NCBI RefSeq assembly: GCF_002160865.1
Contig: NZ_NFLJ01000007.1
Coordinates: forward strand, 1 to 64,000
Length of the DNA: 64,000 nt
DNA from: Massiliimicrobium timonense
GTDB taxonomy: Bacteria > Bacillota_I > Bacilli_A > Erysipelotrichales > Coprobacillaceae
Direction: 5' to 3'
The notes beneath the pieces were generated by a model. That model was not told the DNA's origin. It did no database searches and saw only the letters and a list, made by a program, of their open reading frames with translations. Each line of letters starts with the position of its first letter. Position 1 is the first letter of the stretch. The position numbers and the translations under genes were made by a program. Of this stretch, positions 44,948 through 53,134 are shown in pieces.

Positions 44948-46336
44948 CTAAGAGTGATTTTCTTTTTTCATCAATTTATCACTAATATGAAATGTTTTAT
45001 TTTGTGGTAAATAAACTGTAAAACGACTGCCTCCTTCTTCACGAGAAACAACATCAATACGTCCATGATGTAAATCAACAATCCTTTTGACAATTGATAA
45101 ACCTAAACCATTTCCTTCCACACTTCTTGATTTATCTTGACGATAAAAACGTTCAAAAATATGTGAAATCGCTTCTTTACTCATTCCTACACCCGTATCT
45201 TCAATCACAACTTCTACTTCTTTAGATGTTTTTTTCACATGAATCATGACCACACCATTATCCTGTGTATACTTAATCGCATTATTAATTAAATTAATCC
45301 ACACCTGTTCTAGACGTGATTCATCTCCAACAATACGGATATCATTTTTAGGCACTTCAAATTCAATTTCAATATTCTTACTCAATGCAAAATTATCCTG
45401 TGTTTCAATCACACGATTTAACTGTTCAATCAAAGAAAATTCACTTGTTTCCAGTTTTACATCTTCACCTTCTAATAAAGTCAGCTGTAACATGTTCTTT
45501 GATAAAGTCGATAAACGTTTACTATGAAACAAGATAATATCAGCATATTTTTGTCGTTGTTCATCACTTAACTGTTCATTCTTTAAAATTGTTGCAAAAC
45601 CTTGAATGGCTGTAAGAGGTGTCTGAAATTCATGAGAAACATCTGAAATAAATTGCTGACGTGTTTCATCCTGTTTAGCCAATTGTTGTGCCATTTGATT
45701 GAAACTGCGATTTAAACGAGCAATTTCATCTTTTCCTGTATAATTGACACGCACGCGATAATTCCCCTTAGATAACTCATTGGTAGCCTTCGTTAAACGA
45801 GAAATAGGTTTGACAATAATATCAGCAATCACTAAAAAAGTAATACTTCCAGCAATCAACATACAAAATACAGCAATCAAAGCAGAATCAAGAAAAATCA
45901 TTTCTCTTTTACTCATATCTTTTTGGACATAAACAATATAATCTTGATTCTTCACACGAATAGATTTTGCAAATATACGAATAGAAGAATCTTTTAAAAC
46001 AATGCTTTGACCAATATTTTCTTTTAAAAACTCAACATCCTTTAATGATAAATGCTGTTCCTTCATGTTTCCATAAATATATTTTTGTTGATTGGATTCA
46101 ATATAAAAACTCACTTCTGAAGTGGCTGCATACCCCTGTAAGATTTTATCTAAATCATCTGAATCAATCAGATTCATAAAGTCTTCTATTAATTCGGTAG
46201 AATTTTGCAATTCTTCAACAGCCAACAATCCTAATTCATTCGCATTTTTACGTAATGAAAAATATCCAGCAATCGAAAAACTAAATAAAATACTGACTAA
46301 AAAACCAATAATCAATTTTCCATAAATGGATTTCAT
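44948..46336 (-). CDS. Membrane sensor histidine kinase
   Basis: This 462-residue kinase has TM1 (about 7-29), an extracytoplasmic sensor of about 120 residues, TM2 (about 150-172), HAMP (VKPISRLTKATNELSKGNYR), HisKA with the phospho-His in SDVSHEFQTPLTAIQGFATI near residue 235, and HATPase with N box NLINNAIKYTQ, G1 IEDTGVGMS and G2 GNGLGLSIVKRIV. The F-Q in place of the usual L-R or I-K after the catalytic E is notable. It overlaps its response regulator gene by four bases and lies directly before smc. The signal is unknown. Confidence 0.93.
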   Translation of the reverse strand: MKSIYGKLIIGFLVSILFSFSIAGYFSLRKNANELGLLAVEELQNSTELIEDFMNLIDSDDLDKILQGYAATSEVSFYIESNQQKYIYGNMKEQHLSLKDVEFLKENIGQSIVLKDSSIRIFAKSIRVKNQDYIVYVQKDMSKREMIFLDSALIAVFCMLIAGSITFLVIADIIVKPISRLTKATNELSKGNYRVRVNYTGKDEIARLNRSFNQMAQQLAKQDETRQQFISDVSHEFQTPLTAIQGFATILKNEQLSDEQRQKYADIILFHSKRLSTLSKNMLQLTLLEGEDVKLETSEFSLIEQLNRVIETQDNFALSKNIEIEFEVPKNDIRIVGDESRLEQVWINLINNAIKYTQDNGVVMIHVKKTSKEVEVVIEDTGVGMSKEAISHIFERFYRQDKSRSVEGNGLGLSIVKRIVDLHHGRIDVVSREEGGSRFTVYLPQNKTFHISDKLMKKENHS

Positions 46337-47007
46337 GGTTCAACCTCAATCTTATACCCCAGTCCTCTCACTGTCACGACTTTAAAACCTGGTAAATGTC
46401 CCAGATTTTCACGAATACGTTTAATATGAACATCTACTGTACGATCAAACCCATCATAATCCATTCCCCATATTTTTTCAATAAGCTGTTCTCGGGTAAA
46501 AATCTGATTAGGATTTTTCGCCAGTTCAAATGCCAATTCAAATTGTTTTAATGGTAAATGGATTGTCTGATCATGATAACGGATTTCATATTTATCACCA
46601 TCAAAAACAACATCATGTAAAGTCACAATATTTTGACTATTGATACTATATCTTTTTAAGATTGTTTTGACTCTTGCCAATAATTCATCTGGATCAAAAG
46701 GCTTTGTGACATAATCATCAATTCCTAATGAAAAACCTCTTAATTTATCAGCAGACTGTGATTTTGCTGTTAACATGATAACAGGGATATCTTTCATTTC
46801 TTTCATTTCTTCAACAAGTTGAAAACCATCCATCACAGGCATCATAATATCAACAATCGCCAAATCAATATATTCATTTTCTAAAAGTTGCAATGCTTCT
46901 TGACCACTTGCTGCCTGTACAACAGAAAATCCTTCTTTATCTAAATAAAAACGTATTAACTCTCTAATATGTTCCTCATCATCCACAATTAAAATCTTTG
47001 ATTTCAT
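46333..47007 (-). CDS. OmpR/PhoB-family response regulator
   Basis: This 224-residue regulator has a receiver domain (ILIVDDEEHIRELIRFYLDK; phospho-Asp in LAIVDIMMPVMDGF near residue 52; Lys in YVTKPFDP near residue 101) and a C-terminal winged helix (LPLKQFELAFELAKNPNQIF, then DRTVDVHIKRIRENLG). It is partnered with the overlapping kinase. A 12-bp dyad overlaps the -35 region of its own promoter and may be an autoregulatory site. Confidence 0.95.
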   Translation of the reverse strand: MKSKILIVDDEEHIRELIRFYLDKEGFSVVQAASGQEALQLLENEYIDLAIVDIMMPVMDGFQLVEEMKEMKDIPVIMLTAKSQSADKLRGFSLGIDDYVTKPFDPDELLARVKTILKRYSINSQNIVTLHDVVFDGDKYEIRYHDQTIHLPLKQFELAFELAKNPNQIFTREQLIEKIWGMDYDGFDRTVDVHIKRIRENLGHLPGFKVVTVRGLGYKIEVEP

Positions 47008-47090: not shown

Positions 47091-47099
47091 TACAAAAAT

Positions 47100-47124
47100 A
47101 AAACAACACGCAATGTGTTGTTTT
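47100..47124 (-). terminator. Intrinsic terminator of the Sel1-repeat gene
   Basis: AAAACAACAC and GTGTTGTTTT close the loop GCAAT, overlapping the TAA stop of the Sel1 gene. Confidence 0.85.
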
Positions 47125-50100
47125 ACGAGTTCTTAAAAGGATGAACAAAAGATTTTCTTTTAATCACTTTCATTAATTCTTTGGCCCCTTCAACCTGAGC
47201 ATCCAATGCCTTTTGACACCAGTATTTGGCATCTTTTATAGACACCTTTGTCCCCTGACCATAAGTATAAGCTCTTGCCAAATTCAAATAAGCATTTTCA
47301 TTATCTAATTTAGCAGCCTGTAAAAATAATGCAAAAGATTTTTCAAGATCAACAGCAACCCCATCACCTTCTTTATAGCAGACACCTAAATTATTCATTG
47401 CACCGGGATGTCCTTGATCAACTGCTTTTTGATAATAAAGAATCGCCTTGTCTTTATCCTGCCATTTTTCTCCTGCTTCAAAATCATATAAAACAGCCAG
47501 ATTATAAAGTGATGAAGGATGATTTCTATTGGCTCCTTGTTTAAAAAAGGCAATGGCTTTTTGAAAATCCTGTTCAACACCTTTTCCAGCTTTATACATA
47601 TTTCCTAAAAAGTAACTGGCACGAGGAGAATCCATATCTAATGCTTTTTGATAATACATCAGTGCCTGTGCGTAAGATTGCTTTAAAAGTCCATCTTCAT
47701 ACATTCTTCCAATTTCGATATAACCATCAGCTATACCATTTTGACCAGCAAGTTCATAATAATGCAAAGCCTGTTGTAAGTCTTGACTGACAGCTAATCC
47801 TTCTTCATAAAAGCGTCCGACATGATACATTCCACGTCCCCAATTTTCATTAGCAGCCATTAAATAGTATTCCAGTGCCTTTTGAATATTTGTTTTTGTC
47901 CCTACACCATATTCATAACAATAAGCCACATTGCAAAGAGCTGGTCCATATTTCTGTTTAGCAGCTTCTTGATACAAATGAAAAGCCTTTATTTCATCTT
48001 TTGAACAACCCAGTCCTTCTTCATAAAGAATACCTAGCTGAGATAATGCTCTTGGATAATTCTTTTGGGCTGCCAGTTCGTAATAATACTTAGCCTGCGT
48101 ATAATCTTGTGTTACTCCAATACCATTAGCATAGCAGAAAGCCAAATTACATTGACAGACATCATCATTTTGATTAGCTCCCTGTTGATAATAATCTACA
48201 GCCTTTGTAAAATCAACAGGAACACCACGTCCATCTTCATACATTAATCCAAGTGAACACAAAGCTCTGACATTCCCCTGCTTTACTGCCAATTCATAAT
48301 AGTGCAATGCCTGTTGATAATCCTGTTCAACATAGATTCCATCTTCATAACAGTATCCTAGTCGCCACAACGCCACATCAAAACCAGCATCAGCACCTTT
48401 TTGATAACACTCTACAGCTTTCTTCAAATCAATATCTACACCAATTCCCATTTCATAACAACACCCAAGATTTGTTAATCCACGTAAATTGCCATATTCA
48501 CTAGATTGACGATAACATTCTATAGCTTTTGTTAAATCTTTTTGACAGCCCATTCCTGTTTCATAATAATAGCCTAAATTACACAAGGCAGCTCCATCAT
48601 GAAGCAAAGCGGCCTGTTGATAATAATCAAAAGCTTTTTTCAAATCAACCTGTCCATCTAAAAGTCCTTCTTCATAAATATAACCCAGACAGCAAAGAGC
48701 ACGTGGATATTCATAGGAAGCTGCTTTTTCATACCATTTGACAGCTTCTTGGTAATCGGCTTTACCATTGATTCCCTGTTCATATAAATAAGCCAGATTA
48801 CACATAGCTCTTAAGTTGCCTTGATTGGATGCCTGTATATAATAATCACGTGATTTTTCAAAATTCTTTTCTACACCAATACCCATTTCATAGCAGTAAC
48901 CAAGATTACATAGTGCCACATCATAATCTTGTTTAGCTGCTTCTTGATAAATCTCAACAGCTTTTGAGGCATTCTGTTCTGTACCAATTCCTGCTTCAAA
49001 ACAATAACCTAAGTTTGTCATTCCTCGTAGACTACCCGCCTTGGCAGCCTGTTCATAATAAGCAAAGGCTTGTTTTTCATTTTTATCTACCCCAATACCC
49101 ATTTCATAGTAATATCCTAGTGTACATAGTGATTGGGCATCATGTAAAGATGCACCTTTTTGGACATAGTCAAAAGCCAATTTTTCATCTTTATCAACAT
49201 AGATGCCATTTTCCAGATAGTAGGCATATTTATTTATTGCATAAACATATCCTAAATCAGCACTACGTTTTAAATAATCCATTGACAACTGTGGCTGTTC
49301 TTGTTCAATCATATGACCATAAGCCATCATGGCTCTTGGATAACCCATATTCGCACTTTGTAAATAGAGTTCTTTGGCACGAGTAAGATCAACAGGAACA
49401 CCTATTCCCATTTCATAACAATATCCCAAATAACAGTGAGCAGGTGCATAATTTTGATTAGATGCCTGTTGATACCAGTAAACAGCCTGTTCACTATCCT
49501 GTTCAACACCTTCCCCCACTTCATACAGATAACCCATTTGAAGTTGAGCAACTGGCAATCCATCTTTGGCGCAATCTAAATACCATGAAGCCGCTTTTGT
49601 TAAATCTTGAGATACGCCTAGTCCACACTCATAACAATAACCAATCGCATATTTGGCTTGTGTATAACCTAAATCCGCTGCCTGTTTATAATATGTCATG
49701 GCTTTGACTTCATCTTTTAATGTTCCATATCCAAAACAATAACATTCTCCTAAATAATATAAAGCACGAGGAAACTGATCTTGTGCAGATTTTTCAAAAT
49801 ATTCAAATGCTTGTTGTAAATCAACTTGACAGCCAATTCCTTCCAGACAACAATAAGCATAGTTACAGGCTGATAAACTATCTCCTAAATCTGCCGCCTG
49901 TTTATAATAAACAAGAGCCTGTTGTGGATTTTTTTGTGTTCCTAAACCAATCTCATTCATATAACCTAATGAACAAATCGCTTTTGCATGAAAATGATAA
50001 GCTGCTTTTTCAAACAGATGATAAGCACGATATTCATCCTGTACTTTGTCCTGTCCATTCATATATTGCAATCCTAATCGACATAATTCATCATCAGATA

Positions 50101-50446
50101 ACAACTGTTCATTTTCTTCTTCTAAAGGATATGCAGATAATAAACAGATATCTACCCCTATGACTTGTTGATGATCTTCAATATAATAATGTTCTTCCTG
50201 TAAATAAGGAGAATGACTCAAATCAGGAAAATGAGAAATATCATATAAATTCATTAAATCATAGACAGCATTTTCAACTTCTTCTTCCGAACAAAACACA
50301 GTTTTGACTTTCATCAAAGCATCTTGACCATAATCATCTTTTAAATAAACCCACGCCATATCCTCATAAGATATTGCTACAAAATCAACTTTCCACTTAC
50401 CAAAAAGAGGTTCATATAATTTCAAACGTTCCCATGTTTCCTCCAT
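47123..50446 (-). CDS. Giant cytoplasmic protein of 27 Sel1-like repeats
   Basis: This 1107-residue protein has no signal peptide or membrane segment. A unique N-terminal part of about 115 residues (starting MEETWERLKLYEPLFGKWKV) is followed by 27 consecutive Sel1-like repeats of about 36 residues, consensus A-L-C-N-L-G-Y-C-Y-E-x-G-I-G-V-x-x-D-x-x-K-A-x-x-Y-Y-x-x-A-A, ending in a basic tail. Repeats 8 and 23 are slightly short and 14 and 25 slightly long. Sel1 solenoids are protein-binding scaffolds; the concave surface here would be unusually long. The gene follows the membrane-protein gene by 11 bases, with TAGGAGGGG before ATG. Partners and function are unknown. Confidence 0.92.
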   Translation of the reverse strand: MEETWERLKLYEPLFGKWKVDFVAISYEDMAWVYLKDDYGQDALMKVKTVFCSEEEVENAVYDLMNLYDISHFPDLSHSPYLQEEHYYIEDHQQVIGVDICLLSAYPLEEENEQLLSDDELCRLGLQYMNGQDKVQDEYRAYHLFEKAAYHFHAKAICSLGYMNEIGLGTQKNPQQALVYYKQAADLGDSLSACNYAYCCLEGIGCQVDLQQAFEYFEKSAQDQFPRALYYLGECYCFGYGTLKDEVKAMTYYKQAADLGYTQAKYAIGYCYECGLGVSQDLTKAASWYLDCAKDGLPVAQLQMGYLYEVGEGVEQDSEQAVYWYQQASNQNYAPAHCYLGYCYEMGIGVPVDLTRAKELYLQSANMGYPRAMMAYGHMIEQEQPQLSMDYLKRSADLGYVYAINKYAYYLENGIYVDKDEKLAFDYVQKGASLHDAQSLCTLGYYYEMGIGVDKNEKQAFAYYEQAAKAGSLRGMTNLGYCFEAGIGTEQNASKAVEIYQEAAKQDYDVALCNLGYCYEMGIGVEKNFEKSRDYYIQASNQGNLRAMCNLAYLYEQGINGKADYQEAVKWYEKAASYEYPRALCCLGYIYEEGLLDGQVDLKKAFDYYQQAALLHDGAALCNLGYYYETGMGCQKDLTKAIECYRQSSEYGNLRGLTNLGCCYEMGIGVDIDLKKAVECYQKGADAGFDVALWRLGYCYEDGIYVEQDYQQALHYYELAVKQGNVRALCSLGLMYEDGRGVPVDFTKAVDYYQQGANQNDDVCQCNLAFCYANGIGVTQDYTQAKYYYELAAQKNYPRALSQLGILYEEGLGCSKDEIKAFHLYQEAAKQKYGPALCNVAYCYEYGVGTKTNIQKALEYYLMAANENWGRGMYHVGRFYEEGLAVSQDLQQALHYYELAGQNGIADGYIEIGRMYEDGLLKQSYAQALMYYQKALDMDSPRASYFLGNMYKAGKGVEQDFQKAIAFFKQGANRNHPSSLYNLAVLYDFEAGEKWQDKDKAILYYQKAVDQGHPGAMNNLGVCYKEGDGVAVDLEKSFALFLQAAKLDNENAYLNLARAYTYGQGTKVSIKDAKYWCQKALDAQVEGAKELMKVIKRKSFVHPFKNS

Positions 50447-50457
50447 AATCTCCCCTC

Positions 50458-52113
50458 CTATTTCACGGTGATTGCAGAAACAGTCTGTGAAGTCGATTCA
50501 TCATCAATATATTCAATCGTTACAGTATCACCAGCTTTTAAAAATGGTAATTGGGCATTTAAAGAAACAGGTGCAATAAAGATTTTTTGAGAATCCTTTA
50601 ATTGAAAATAATACTGTGAATTGCCATTGACAACCACTTCATGAATCTCAGTAATCACTGAACTCAATTCACTGTTATCATAATCAACCTGTGTTTTTCC
50701 ATTATCTTTTAGCAATGCATAATATGCCTTTTCAGCTTCAGCAACACTGTCCCCTACTGAAACAATCTGATAATTTTCAACACTGACGAAAGCATATTTT
50801 TTAACAAGACCAGCACTATCTTTTAAAGACATAAAGTAAGTCGGTTCACCCCCAGCATTAATCAAAATTGGGAATGTTGCCGTATATTTTAAATCTGTCA
50901 CCTTTCCTTCAGCTGAAGACATAGCAGAAAATTCCTCAGCCCCACTAATAGCATAATATTTGGCTTCTTTGGTACGCATATTAATTAAGGCAAAACCAAC
51001 ATTTGATGCATCATTAGAAACAGATGTTAAACCTGTATATAAATAAACATCATCATTTAAAGCAATATAGTTATATCCATCCGTAGGTTTTAAAACCCCT
51101 TTTTGAGAAAAAATAGTATTAAAGAAACCATGTGTATATTTTCCCCAGTTATTTAACTGTTCTAACAATAATTCAGAAGGATAAACACGATCAATCCATG
51201 TTGGCACATCTTCAATAGCATAATATTGACATTCCCCACTCACAGCATCTACCAGCACAGCTCCGGTAATATCTTTTCCACCAAACAATCCAATTTTATA
51301 AGTATATGTTGGTGCAACCCAATAAGGATGTCCATTATCATCAATTTCAAAAGAAGGTGATTCAAACATCTTTGTTGGATAATGAATACGTAAATGACGA
51401 TCAATATTTCTAAAGAATAAATCTGAATGAGAATATTTCATTCCTTCTTCTAAACGCACCACTTCACTTTCCTGTGTCACCATATCAACACGAATATAAG
51501 CAGGAAGACCTTCACGATGATTTGTAAACCATTTAATCAAATCACTATAAGAAATTGTCGTCACTCTAAAAGGTTTATCTTGATAATTGATTTGTACATA
51601 ATCATTATCAACTTCAAACTGTGAAACATAATCAACAATTTCGCCCATCTTACGATCTCCTAGACGCTCAGCACTTTCTTTATCAACAACAGGAATAGAC
51701 TGAAAATCTACTTTTGGATTATCTTTATAAAAATCAGCATTTTTATCAACATTTAACTGTTTTTGATAACTTGATGCAAAAAAGACTGGTGAACTTATCA
51801 ATTGTCCAGCAAAAACATAAACAAGCAACAAAGCCACAATGGCACTCATGATTTTATTGGCTTTATCAAATGAAGCCAGAAATAAAAATCTTAATGCTAT
51901 AAATATAACTAATTCAATACTTAAAAAGAATATAAAATCCGGTGATCTTAAATTAATTGGAATTAAAACAAAATATTCCACAACCAAAAAGACAACCATT
52001 ACAATCAACAAAGCCTTAAGCGTTCCACCCTTTTGAGGATGCGATTGATGAAAAAACTGACGTTGTCTGTTTTCCGTCATTTTTGTAAAAAATTTTTCAA
52101 ATAAATTATCCAT
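50458..52113 (-). CDS. Conserved membrane protein of unknown function
   Basis: This 551-residue protein has a short cytoplasmic start, three hydrophobic segments (about residues 33-53, 60-80 and 87-108), and a large C-terminal region of about 430 residues that should lie outside. The latter has repeated beta-rich stretches such as DNGHPYWVAPTYTYKIGLFG, YNYIALNDDVYLYTGLTSVS and GEPTYFMSLKDSAGLVKKYA, which may be PepSY-like modules, and an OB-like end (PFLKAGDTVTIEYIDD). I recognise it as a type widespread in Firmicutes but know no function. It overlaps nrnA by eight bases. Confidence 0.7.
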   Translation of the reverse strand: MDNLFEKFFTKMTENRQRQFFHQSHPQKGGTLKALLIVMVVFLVVEYFVLIPINLRSPDFIFFLSIELVIFIALRFLFLASFDKANKIMSAIVALLLVYVFAGQLISSPVFFASSYQKQLNVDKNADFYKDNPKVDFQSIPVVDKESAERLGDRKMGEIVDYVSQFEVDNDYVQINYQDKPFRVTTISYSDLIKWFTNHREGLPAYIRVDMVTQESEVVRLEEGMKYSHSDLFFRNIDRHLRIHYPTKMFESPSFEIDDNGHPYWVAPTYTYKIGLFGGKDITGAVLVDAVSGECQYYAIEDVPTWIDRVYPSELLLEQLNNWGKYTHGFFNTIFSQKGVLKPTDGYNYIALNDDVYLYTGLTSVSNDASNVGFALINMRTKEAKYYAISGAEEFSAMSSAEGKVTDLKYTATFPILINAGGEPTYFMSLKDSAGLVKKYAFVSVENYQIVSVGDSVAEAEKAYYALLKDNGKTQVDYDNSELSSVITEIHEVVVNGNSQYYFQLKDSQKIFIAPVSLNAQLPFLKAGDTVTIEYIDDESTSQTVSAITVK

Positions 52114-53029
52114 TGATTTTCTCCTTTATTTTTTCAATCAGTTGATTCAATTCGTCCAAAGACTGCAATGTCGCTCCAGAAGCATAAGCATGTCCACCAC
52201 CATGAAACGACGCTGCAATATCATTAATAGGTATTTGACGACTACGCATACTGACACGATAGTTATTCTCTTTTTTATTTTGAGTCACTGCTAACCATAC
52301 TTGAAATTCCTCAAAGTTCGCTAAAGTATTAACATAAGATGATCCTTGTTCTCTCGTCATCTGTAAAGCCTGTAAATCATCATCACTTAAATAATACCAT
52401 GCAACCCCACCATCTTCGTGGTAATGATTATAAATAAACTTGATAATTTCTAAATCTTTTTGGGTACGCATATATAAACGTTGATACAAATCCTCAATAT
52501 GAATACCCATATCTAATAGATAGGATGCTGCCTCAAATGTTTTCTTTGAAGTAGAGCTATACAAAAAGCGATTGCTGTCACCGACAATACCTAAATACAA
52601 CGCATTGGCTGCTTCTAATGGAATCAGTGCCTTTGCCTGTTTAAATAATAGTGTCACAATCTCACTGCATGAAGAAGCTGCTTCATCTTCAATATTAATA
52701 TCACCATAAGAATCAACAACAATATGATGATCAATCTTTAAAATCTGATCACAGCATGTAATATCTCCATCTATACGTTCTCGATTGGCTGTATCTAAAA
52801 CAATACCTAAGGTATACCCTTTTTGAACTTCACCACATTCAAATGAAGGATAATATTTTAATAAATCACTTTCCATTTGTCCTGCTAAAACAATATTTTT
52901 TTGAGGATATAAAGCTTTTAATGTCCAATACATCCCAAATTGAGAACCAAATGCATCTAAATCAGGATTAACATGTCTATATATAATAATCTGATCAAAT
53001 TCTTTTCTTATTTTTAATATCTTATCCAT
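52106..53029 (-). CDS. nrnA: DHH/DHHA1 phosphoesterase, NrnA-like
   Basis: This 307-residue protein has DHH-superfamily motifs: IYRHVNPDLDAFGSQFG near residue 17, VLDTANRERIDG near residue 77, KIDHHIVVDSYGD near residue 98 and the DHHA1 RNA-binding GGGHAYASGATLQ near residue 280. Such proteins degrade nano-RNA and pAp and may act on dinucleotides such as pApA. The N-P-D-L-D motif retains both metal Asp residues. It is first in the unit with the membrane protein and Sel1 gene. Confidence 0.88.
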   Translation of the reverse strand: MDKILKIRKEFDQIIIYRHVNPDLDAFGSQFGMYWTLKALYPQKNIVLAGQMESDLLKYYPSFECGEVQKGYTLGIVLDTANRERIDGDITCCDQILKIDHHIVVDSYGDINIEDEAASSCSEIVTLLFKQAKALIPLEAANALYLGIVGDSNRFLYSSTSKKTFEAASYLLDMGIHIEDLYQRLYMRTQKDLEIIKFIYNHYHEDGGVAWYYLSDDDLQALQMTREQGSSYVNTLANFEEFQVWLAVTQNKKENNYRVSMRSRQIPINDIAASFHGGGHAYASGATLQSLDELNQLIEKIKEKING

Positions 53030-53105: not shown

Positions 53106-53134
53106 ATAAAAAGAGTTGAATTCTTTCAACTCTT
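53106..53134 (-). terminator. Intrinsic terminator of ackA
   Basis: AAGAGTTGAA (53111-53120) and TTCAACTCTT (53125-53134) form a ten-bp stem with a four-base loop, overlapping the ackA TAA stop, followed by T-rich sequence on the minus strand. Confidence 0.87.

Follow-up and report, generated by a model that had tools for sequence, protein, structure and literature searches.

The locus raises the question of what a gut bacterium does with a very long Sel1-repeat protein that seems not to be exported. In the window, i.e. the whole stretch of 64,000 nucleotides analysed, this protein, here called SEL, is encoded by a complete open reading frame of 1107 aa (47123..50446, minus strand), which is supported as a Sel1 solenoid by Pfam and the AlphaFold2 model. 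The start codon is ATG with a strong ribosome site, AGGAGGGG, directly before it; the ribosome-binding site AGGAGGGGA (50451..50459, minus strand) overlaps the TAG stop of the preceding gene. At the stop codon of SEL an intrinsic terminator-like hairpin with a 12 bp stem and a T tail was detected by consensus match only (47098..47126, minus strand).

Pfam recognised 26 Sel1 (PF08238) stretches in SEL, with an E value of 2.4e-205 for the whole protein. A 27th repeat was recognised from the register only. This short degenerate repeat, R8 (residues 371-401; 49244..49336, minus strand), consists of 31 residues, lacks the G-x-G loop and fills a gap of 67 residues between Pfam matches. It is retained in each orthologue at the nrnA site with a readable array, and the spacing of 67 residues was found in each of them. 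AlphaFold2, run with nine sequences, predicted 27 helix hairpins between residues 118 and 1082, mostly with pLDDT above 90. Taken together, Pfam, the repeat register and the model place 27 Sel1-like repeats at residues 119-1086 (47189..50092, minus strand). The closest solved folds found with Foldseek were bacterial Sel1 proteins (E 2e-22). With tandem repeats of about 36 residues and a helix-hairpin solenoid, SEL is a genuine Sel1-repeat protein. The original prediction, made from the letters of the DNA, had counted 27 repeats. This number is right because R8 adds to the 26 Pfam stretches; of the two checks proposed at that time, structure prediction gives 27 and HMM repeat counting 26. The repeats were also correctly described as diverged, since their identity within the protein averages 34% and does not exceed 56%. 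An array of this kind lies far outside what chance would produce.

An exceptional repeat number, which had been claimed as well, could not be confirmed. Longer Sel1 arrays occur elsewhere, in a deltaproteobacterial ORF with 47 repeats (2038 aa; locus L064, from 3706, plus strand) and in one of Amoebophilus, which has 29 or more. A record length was therefore rejected, and the length of SEL alone is not new. Furthermore, the number varies between genera. The length of SEL is unusual, but no record.

Bacterial Sel1 proteins are mostly known as exported or injected factors. In the whole of SEL, no 19-residue window exceeded a Kyte-Doolittle mean of 0.9 (maximum 0.89). Hence, by this measure the protein has neither a signal peptide nor a transmembrane segment. 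The N-terminus reads MEETWERLKLYEP, and no signal peptide, lipobox or transmembrane anchor was seen in the hydropathy analysis. SEL apparently stands outside the exported Sel1 proteins and is cytosolic. This is in line with the cytoplasmic protein without export signal that had been expected; its unique N-terminal part, given as about 115 residues, was measured at about 118.

Judged from the predicted fold, a scaffold-type role would be the natural reading of such a solenoid. The conservation of the array was examined within the genus and between genera. Within the genus all four complete copies have 27 repeats, and these are collinear, with 25-27 of 27 being reciprocal best matches. Other genera showed 28, 23, 24, 20 and about 30 repeats at the nrnA site. 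At a second site the number was 14-16, and a copy at a third place (genome G006) has 25. From genus to genus, repeats close to either terminus hold their position, and the middle turns over. In the full alignment R13-R16 (residues 546-690; 48377..48811, minus strand) were aligned in only about 40-48% of the orthologues from other genera. According to the alignments, only the middle of the array turns over; the low conservation values of the middle repeats are partly a gap effect. The best conserved non-consensus positions lie on the first helix of each of the repeats R2-R4, R7, R9 and R25-R26. Within the N-terminal block R2-R9 (residues 155-437; 49136..49984, minus strand) such positions are kept on the first, groove-side helices. 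Groove-side positions are likewise conserved in R25-R26 (residues 978-1050; 47297..47515, minus strand).

Within the genus, dN/dS of SEL was 0.135-0.143, which is only a rough value because dS was above 1. The dN of SEL was two to three times that of nrnA, the histidine kinase gene and the gene of the neighbouring 551-aa protein (551aa), and SEL evolves faster than all neighbours. This speed and the differing repeat numbers between genera would suit a selfish or fast-turning array, kept for fold stability only and with no particular conserved partner. Such an array is quite improbable here. The number is fixed in the genus with collinear repeats, the short R8 is kept everywhere at the nrnA site, and non-consensus positions are conserved at both ends; the conserved end blocks already weaken this explanation. 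Purifying selection on SEL is supported. The description of the array as old and under selection gains support from repeats that are collinear across species, from the conserved positions and from dN/dS of about 0.135. Homologues with widely varying repeat number and no conserved surface had been named as an outcome that would speak against the original prediction. The number does vary (20-30 at the nrnA site, 14-16 at the second), but a conserved surface is present, since R2-R9 and R25-R26 retain non-consensus positions.

The nearest named genomes are those of Massilimicrobiota, in the Erysipelotrichales. Of 43 genomes of the bacterial family, 32 gave a match to the N-terminal domain of SEL; they represent 12 of 20 genera. 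A sample of 395 genomes from across the class gave one marginal partial match (E 6e-4) outside the family. According to these searches the domain appears to be practically restricted to one bacterial family. A homology search had been proposed to see whether the N-terminal part and the repeat number are conserved; the N-terminal part is conserved within the family, the repeat number only within the genus. Genera g4, g12 and g14 carry the SEL gene at another place, where its neighbours are a divergent RodA/FtsW-like gene and, downstream, an M29 aminopeptidase gene; domain searches at this second site covered one representative locus (L153). The two site groups are split by one branch (94/86) in the N-domain tree. 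In the open-access literature, no published function was found for any protein with this domain. Some further Sel1 genes were observed. Genus g8 has a second, shorter Sel1 copy that begins, in frame, directly after the stop of the first (L147, 5335-6510 and 6511-9513), and the same arrangement occurs at L145 (38-973 and 974-3970). The second Sel1 copy of genome G026 is broken. The genome that contains the window encodes, on contig C39, a second Sel1 protein (369 aa; L158, 3025-4134, minus strand), whose N-terminus is different and whose gene adjoins that of a SpoU-type methylase.

Upstream of SEL lies the gene of 551aa (50458..52113, minus strand), a protein for which three transmembrane segments are predicted. 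Neither Pfam nor NCBIfam gave a family above the cut-off for it, and no PDB sequence match was significant. Its large C-terminal domain is conserved, and 551aa is present order-wide, with or without the SEL gene. Its gene is overlapped by 8 nt by that of a DHH/DHHA1 phosphoesterase (52106..53029, minus strand), NrnA-like and below the NCBIfam cut-off. A terminator-like hairpin, again a consensus match only, follows ackA (53111..53134, minus strand). Because such hairpins follow both ackA and SEL, a three-gene transcript nrnA-551aa-SEL with SEL as last gene is suggested. Downstream, a response regulator (RR; 46333..47007, minus strand) belongs to a separate predicted transcript. It is followed by a histidine kinase (HK; 44948-46336), smc and ftsY.

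Most of the orthologue loci examined for the nrnA site show the order nrnA-551aa-SEL-RR-HK-smc-ftsY. Together with the short distance between 551aa and SEL and the bounding terminators, this could indicate an operon-tied membrane signalling scaffold, by which SEL connects 551aa and NrnA with the two-component system encoded downstream. We regard such a role as unlikely. In other genera of the family the response regulator directly follows 551aa, and the 551aa-RR-HK-smc block exists without a SEL gene. The relocation of the SEL gene in g4, g12 and g14, the separate transcript predicted for RR-HK and the evolution of SEL, faster than that of all neighbours, also argue against it. An obligate partnership of SEL and 551aa was rejected, since 551aa exists where the SEL gene is absent.

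The N-terminal domain (residues 1-118; 50093..50446, minus strand) is predicted as b1-b2-b3-alphaC-b4-b5 from AlphaFold2, Foldseek, the alignment and the divergent relative L266. Both AlphaFold runs gave a helix, strands at 19-26, 31-36 and 42-47, a helix at 56-67 and strands at 87-91 and 94-98. This predicted order of elements is that of a protein-kinase N-lobe. Confidence for this domain was low in the full-length run; in the domain run the mean pLDDT was 60, with about 75 over residues 1-50. All 50 PDB matches listed by Foldseek were kinase-fold proteins (best E 0.12, probability 0.95), including AAK1, SRPK1, entries from Mycobacterium PknA/B work, APH(2'') and MerTK; these matches are not mutually independent. 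With the viral fold library the two top matches were kinases, followed by a mixed list. Neither the PDB nor the viral library gave a match below E 0.001. Lys46 in ALMKVK is nearly invariant in the alignment and stands where the beta-3 lysine would be, a placement that depends on the N-lobe reading. The kinase resemblance had been proposed by eye, on reading the sequence, ahead of the structure predictions, and the later tests thus examine a prior guess.

Other kinase features are missing. At the place corresponding to the glycine loop SEL has SYEDMAW, and no C-lobe, HRD or DFG is present, with the Sel1 repeats starting at residue 119. Judged from these absences, SEL is not a catalytic protein kinase. 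For residues 1-118, Pfam and PDB sequence searches gave no family, and Pfam gave no Pkinase match. Comparison of the N-domain profile with Bacillota kinases by hhalign was no better than with controls. An approximate Firmicutes kinase probe, searched against genomes, viral contigs and plasmids, yielded nothing significant bearing on a kinase origin.

The relative L266 from another genus has 720 aa and 16 repeats. It reads VDQILNKGSFGQEF, in which GSFG resembles a glycine loop, a remnant seen in L266 only. The only PDB sequence matches of L266 were to the glycine-loop region of PKC theta, with E about 0.3 (0.33). The beta-3 lysine is absent from L266, which has E at the place of Lys46. What ties L266 to the family is a weak match of the N-domain (E about 1e-5 at Z=3000; 2.4e-5), and its branch is very long. 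With its N-domain as query for intermediates, only weak or chance matches were obtained. No kinase-Sel1 fusion was found in seven regions read from family members without the SEL gene. These regions instead hold Sel1 proteins with unrelated N-termini, namely a MobL relaxase and a zinc-ribbon-like start. In genome G013 of the same family a single ORF of 983 aa joins the MobL relaxase (PF18555, E 4e-31) to 12 or more Sel1 repeats (L264, 1937-4885, minus strand). This domain pairing is unusual; a second, split copy occurs in L265.

The tests of the kinase link are each weak and all point in one direction; no single one is significant. Because no profile comparison with kinases reached significance, the link is likely, not proven, and we lean moderately towards an origin of the N-domain from a kinase N-lobe. 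Otherwise, SEL would be an ordinary long Sel1 adaptor whose N-domain, of a small alpha/beta type, has no relation to kinases, and the resemblance would be that of any beta-hairpins plus a helix. The modest pLDDT of the domain, the lack of significance in sequence and profile comparisons with kinases and the lack of Foldseek matches below E 0.001 are what this explanation would lead one to expect. The listed PDB matches, however, are exclusively kinase-fold and come from many subfamilies. Moreover, the strand-strand-strand-helix-strand-strand order, the third-strand lysine and GSFG of L266 are three separate kinase-like features. An unrelated domain is thus a serious alternative, although a rather unlikely one. 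The N-lobe-like character of this domain, the most interesting part of SEL, and the confinement of turnover to the middle were both overlooked in the original prediction.

With a rough probability of 0.55, we favour SEL as a cytosolic Sel1 adaptor or scaffold with a non-catalytic cap derived from a kinase N-lobe, two partner-binding grooves and a middle spacer. The 27 helix hairpins would form a long superhelix. Fold and conservation suggest that the grooves of R2-R9, around the short R8, and of R25-R26 may bind partner proteins, and that the middle repeats may act as a tolerant spacer gaining and losing units. The N-terminal residues, about 105 in number, would be a degenerate N-lobe, its glycine loop lost and a C-lobe lacking, and for these reasons could not catalyse phosphotransfer. 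This part may serve as a folded cap or, putatively, as a docking module. SEL may also be linked to the predicted co-transcribed membrane protein or to envelope or division processes. Only tentatively, at somewhat less than even odds, do we go further and propose a pseudokinase-headed cytosolic scaffold, in which an N-lobe without C-lobe caps a length-variable Sel1 solenoid with two docking grooves and an evolving spacer.

As a chromosomally conserved, apparently cytosolic protein of 27 repeats, SEL is a natural system for the gain and loss of repeats with binding ends kept. If the kinase-N-lobe origin is true, half a kinase fold can persist as a domain of its own, a point of relevance to the emergence of pseudokinases and adaptor proteins.

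Repeat and solenoid fold are shared by SEL with structures of Oxalobacter (6ok3), E. coli c5321 (4bwr), Legionella LceB (8sxq) and HcpC (1ouv). These four have far fewer repeats and several are exported or injected, whereas SEL has no export segment and an extra N-domain. For LceB eight SLRs were reported (PMC10868440). The eukaryotic SEL1L/Hrd3 is, like SEL, a large Sel1 protein, an adaptor that selects and positions protein partners. In contrast to SEL, it is an ER-lumenal ERAD component without a kinase-like domain; no orthology is implied. EssB is a bacterial serine/threonine pseudokinase with degraded glycine loop and catalytic motifs, in which the kinase fold is reused as an interaction module (PMC12599244). 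Sel1 is not mentioned in the text of that paper. Pseudokinases of the EssB type retain the whole kinase fold, whereas SEL has no C-lobe. A kinase domain together with four C-terminal SEL1-like motifs was described for eEF2K (PMC5742810). Both proteins combine a kinase-type domain, predicted in the case of SEL, with Sel1-like repeats. However, eEF2K is an active eukaryotic alpha-kinase with few repeats, and SEL has a degenerate N-lobe-like half and 27 repeats. While Sel1 repeats and long arrays were already known, the probable kinase-derived cap and the pattern of fixed ends and variable middle are new in SEL.
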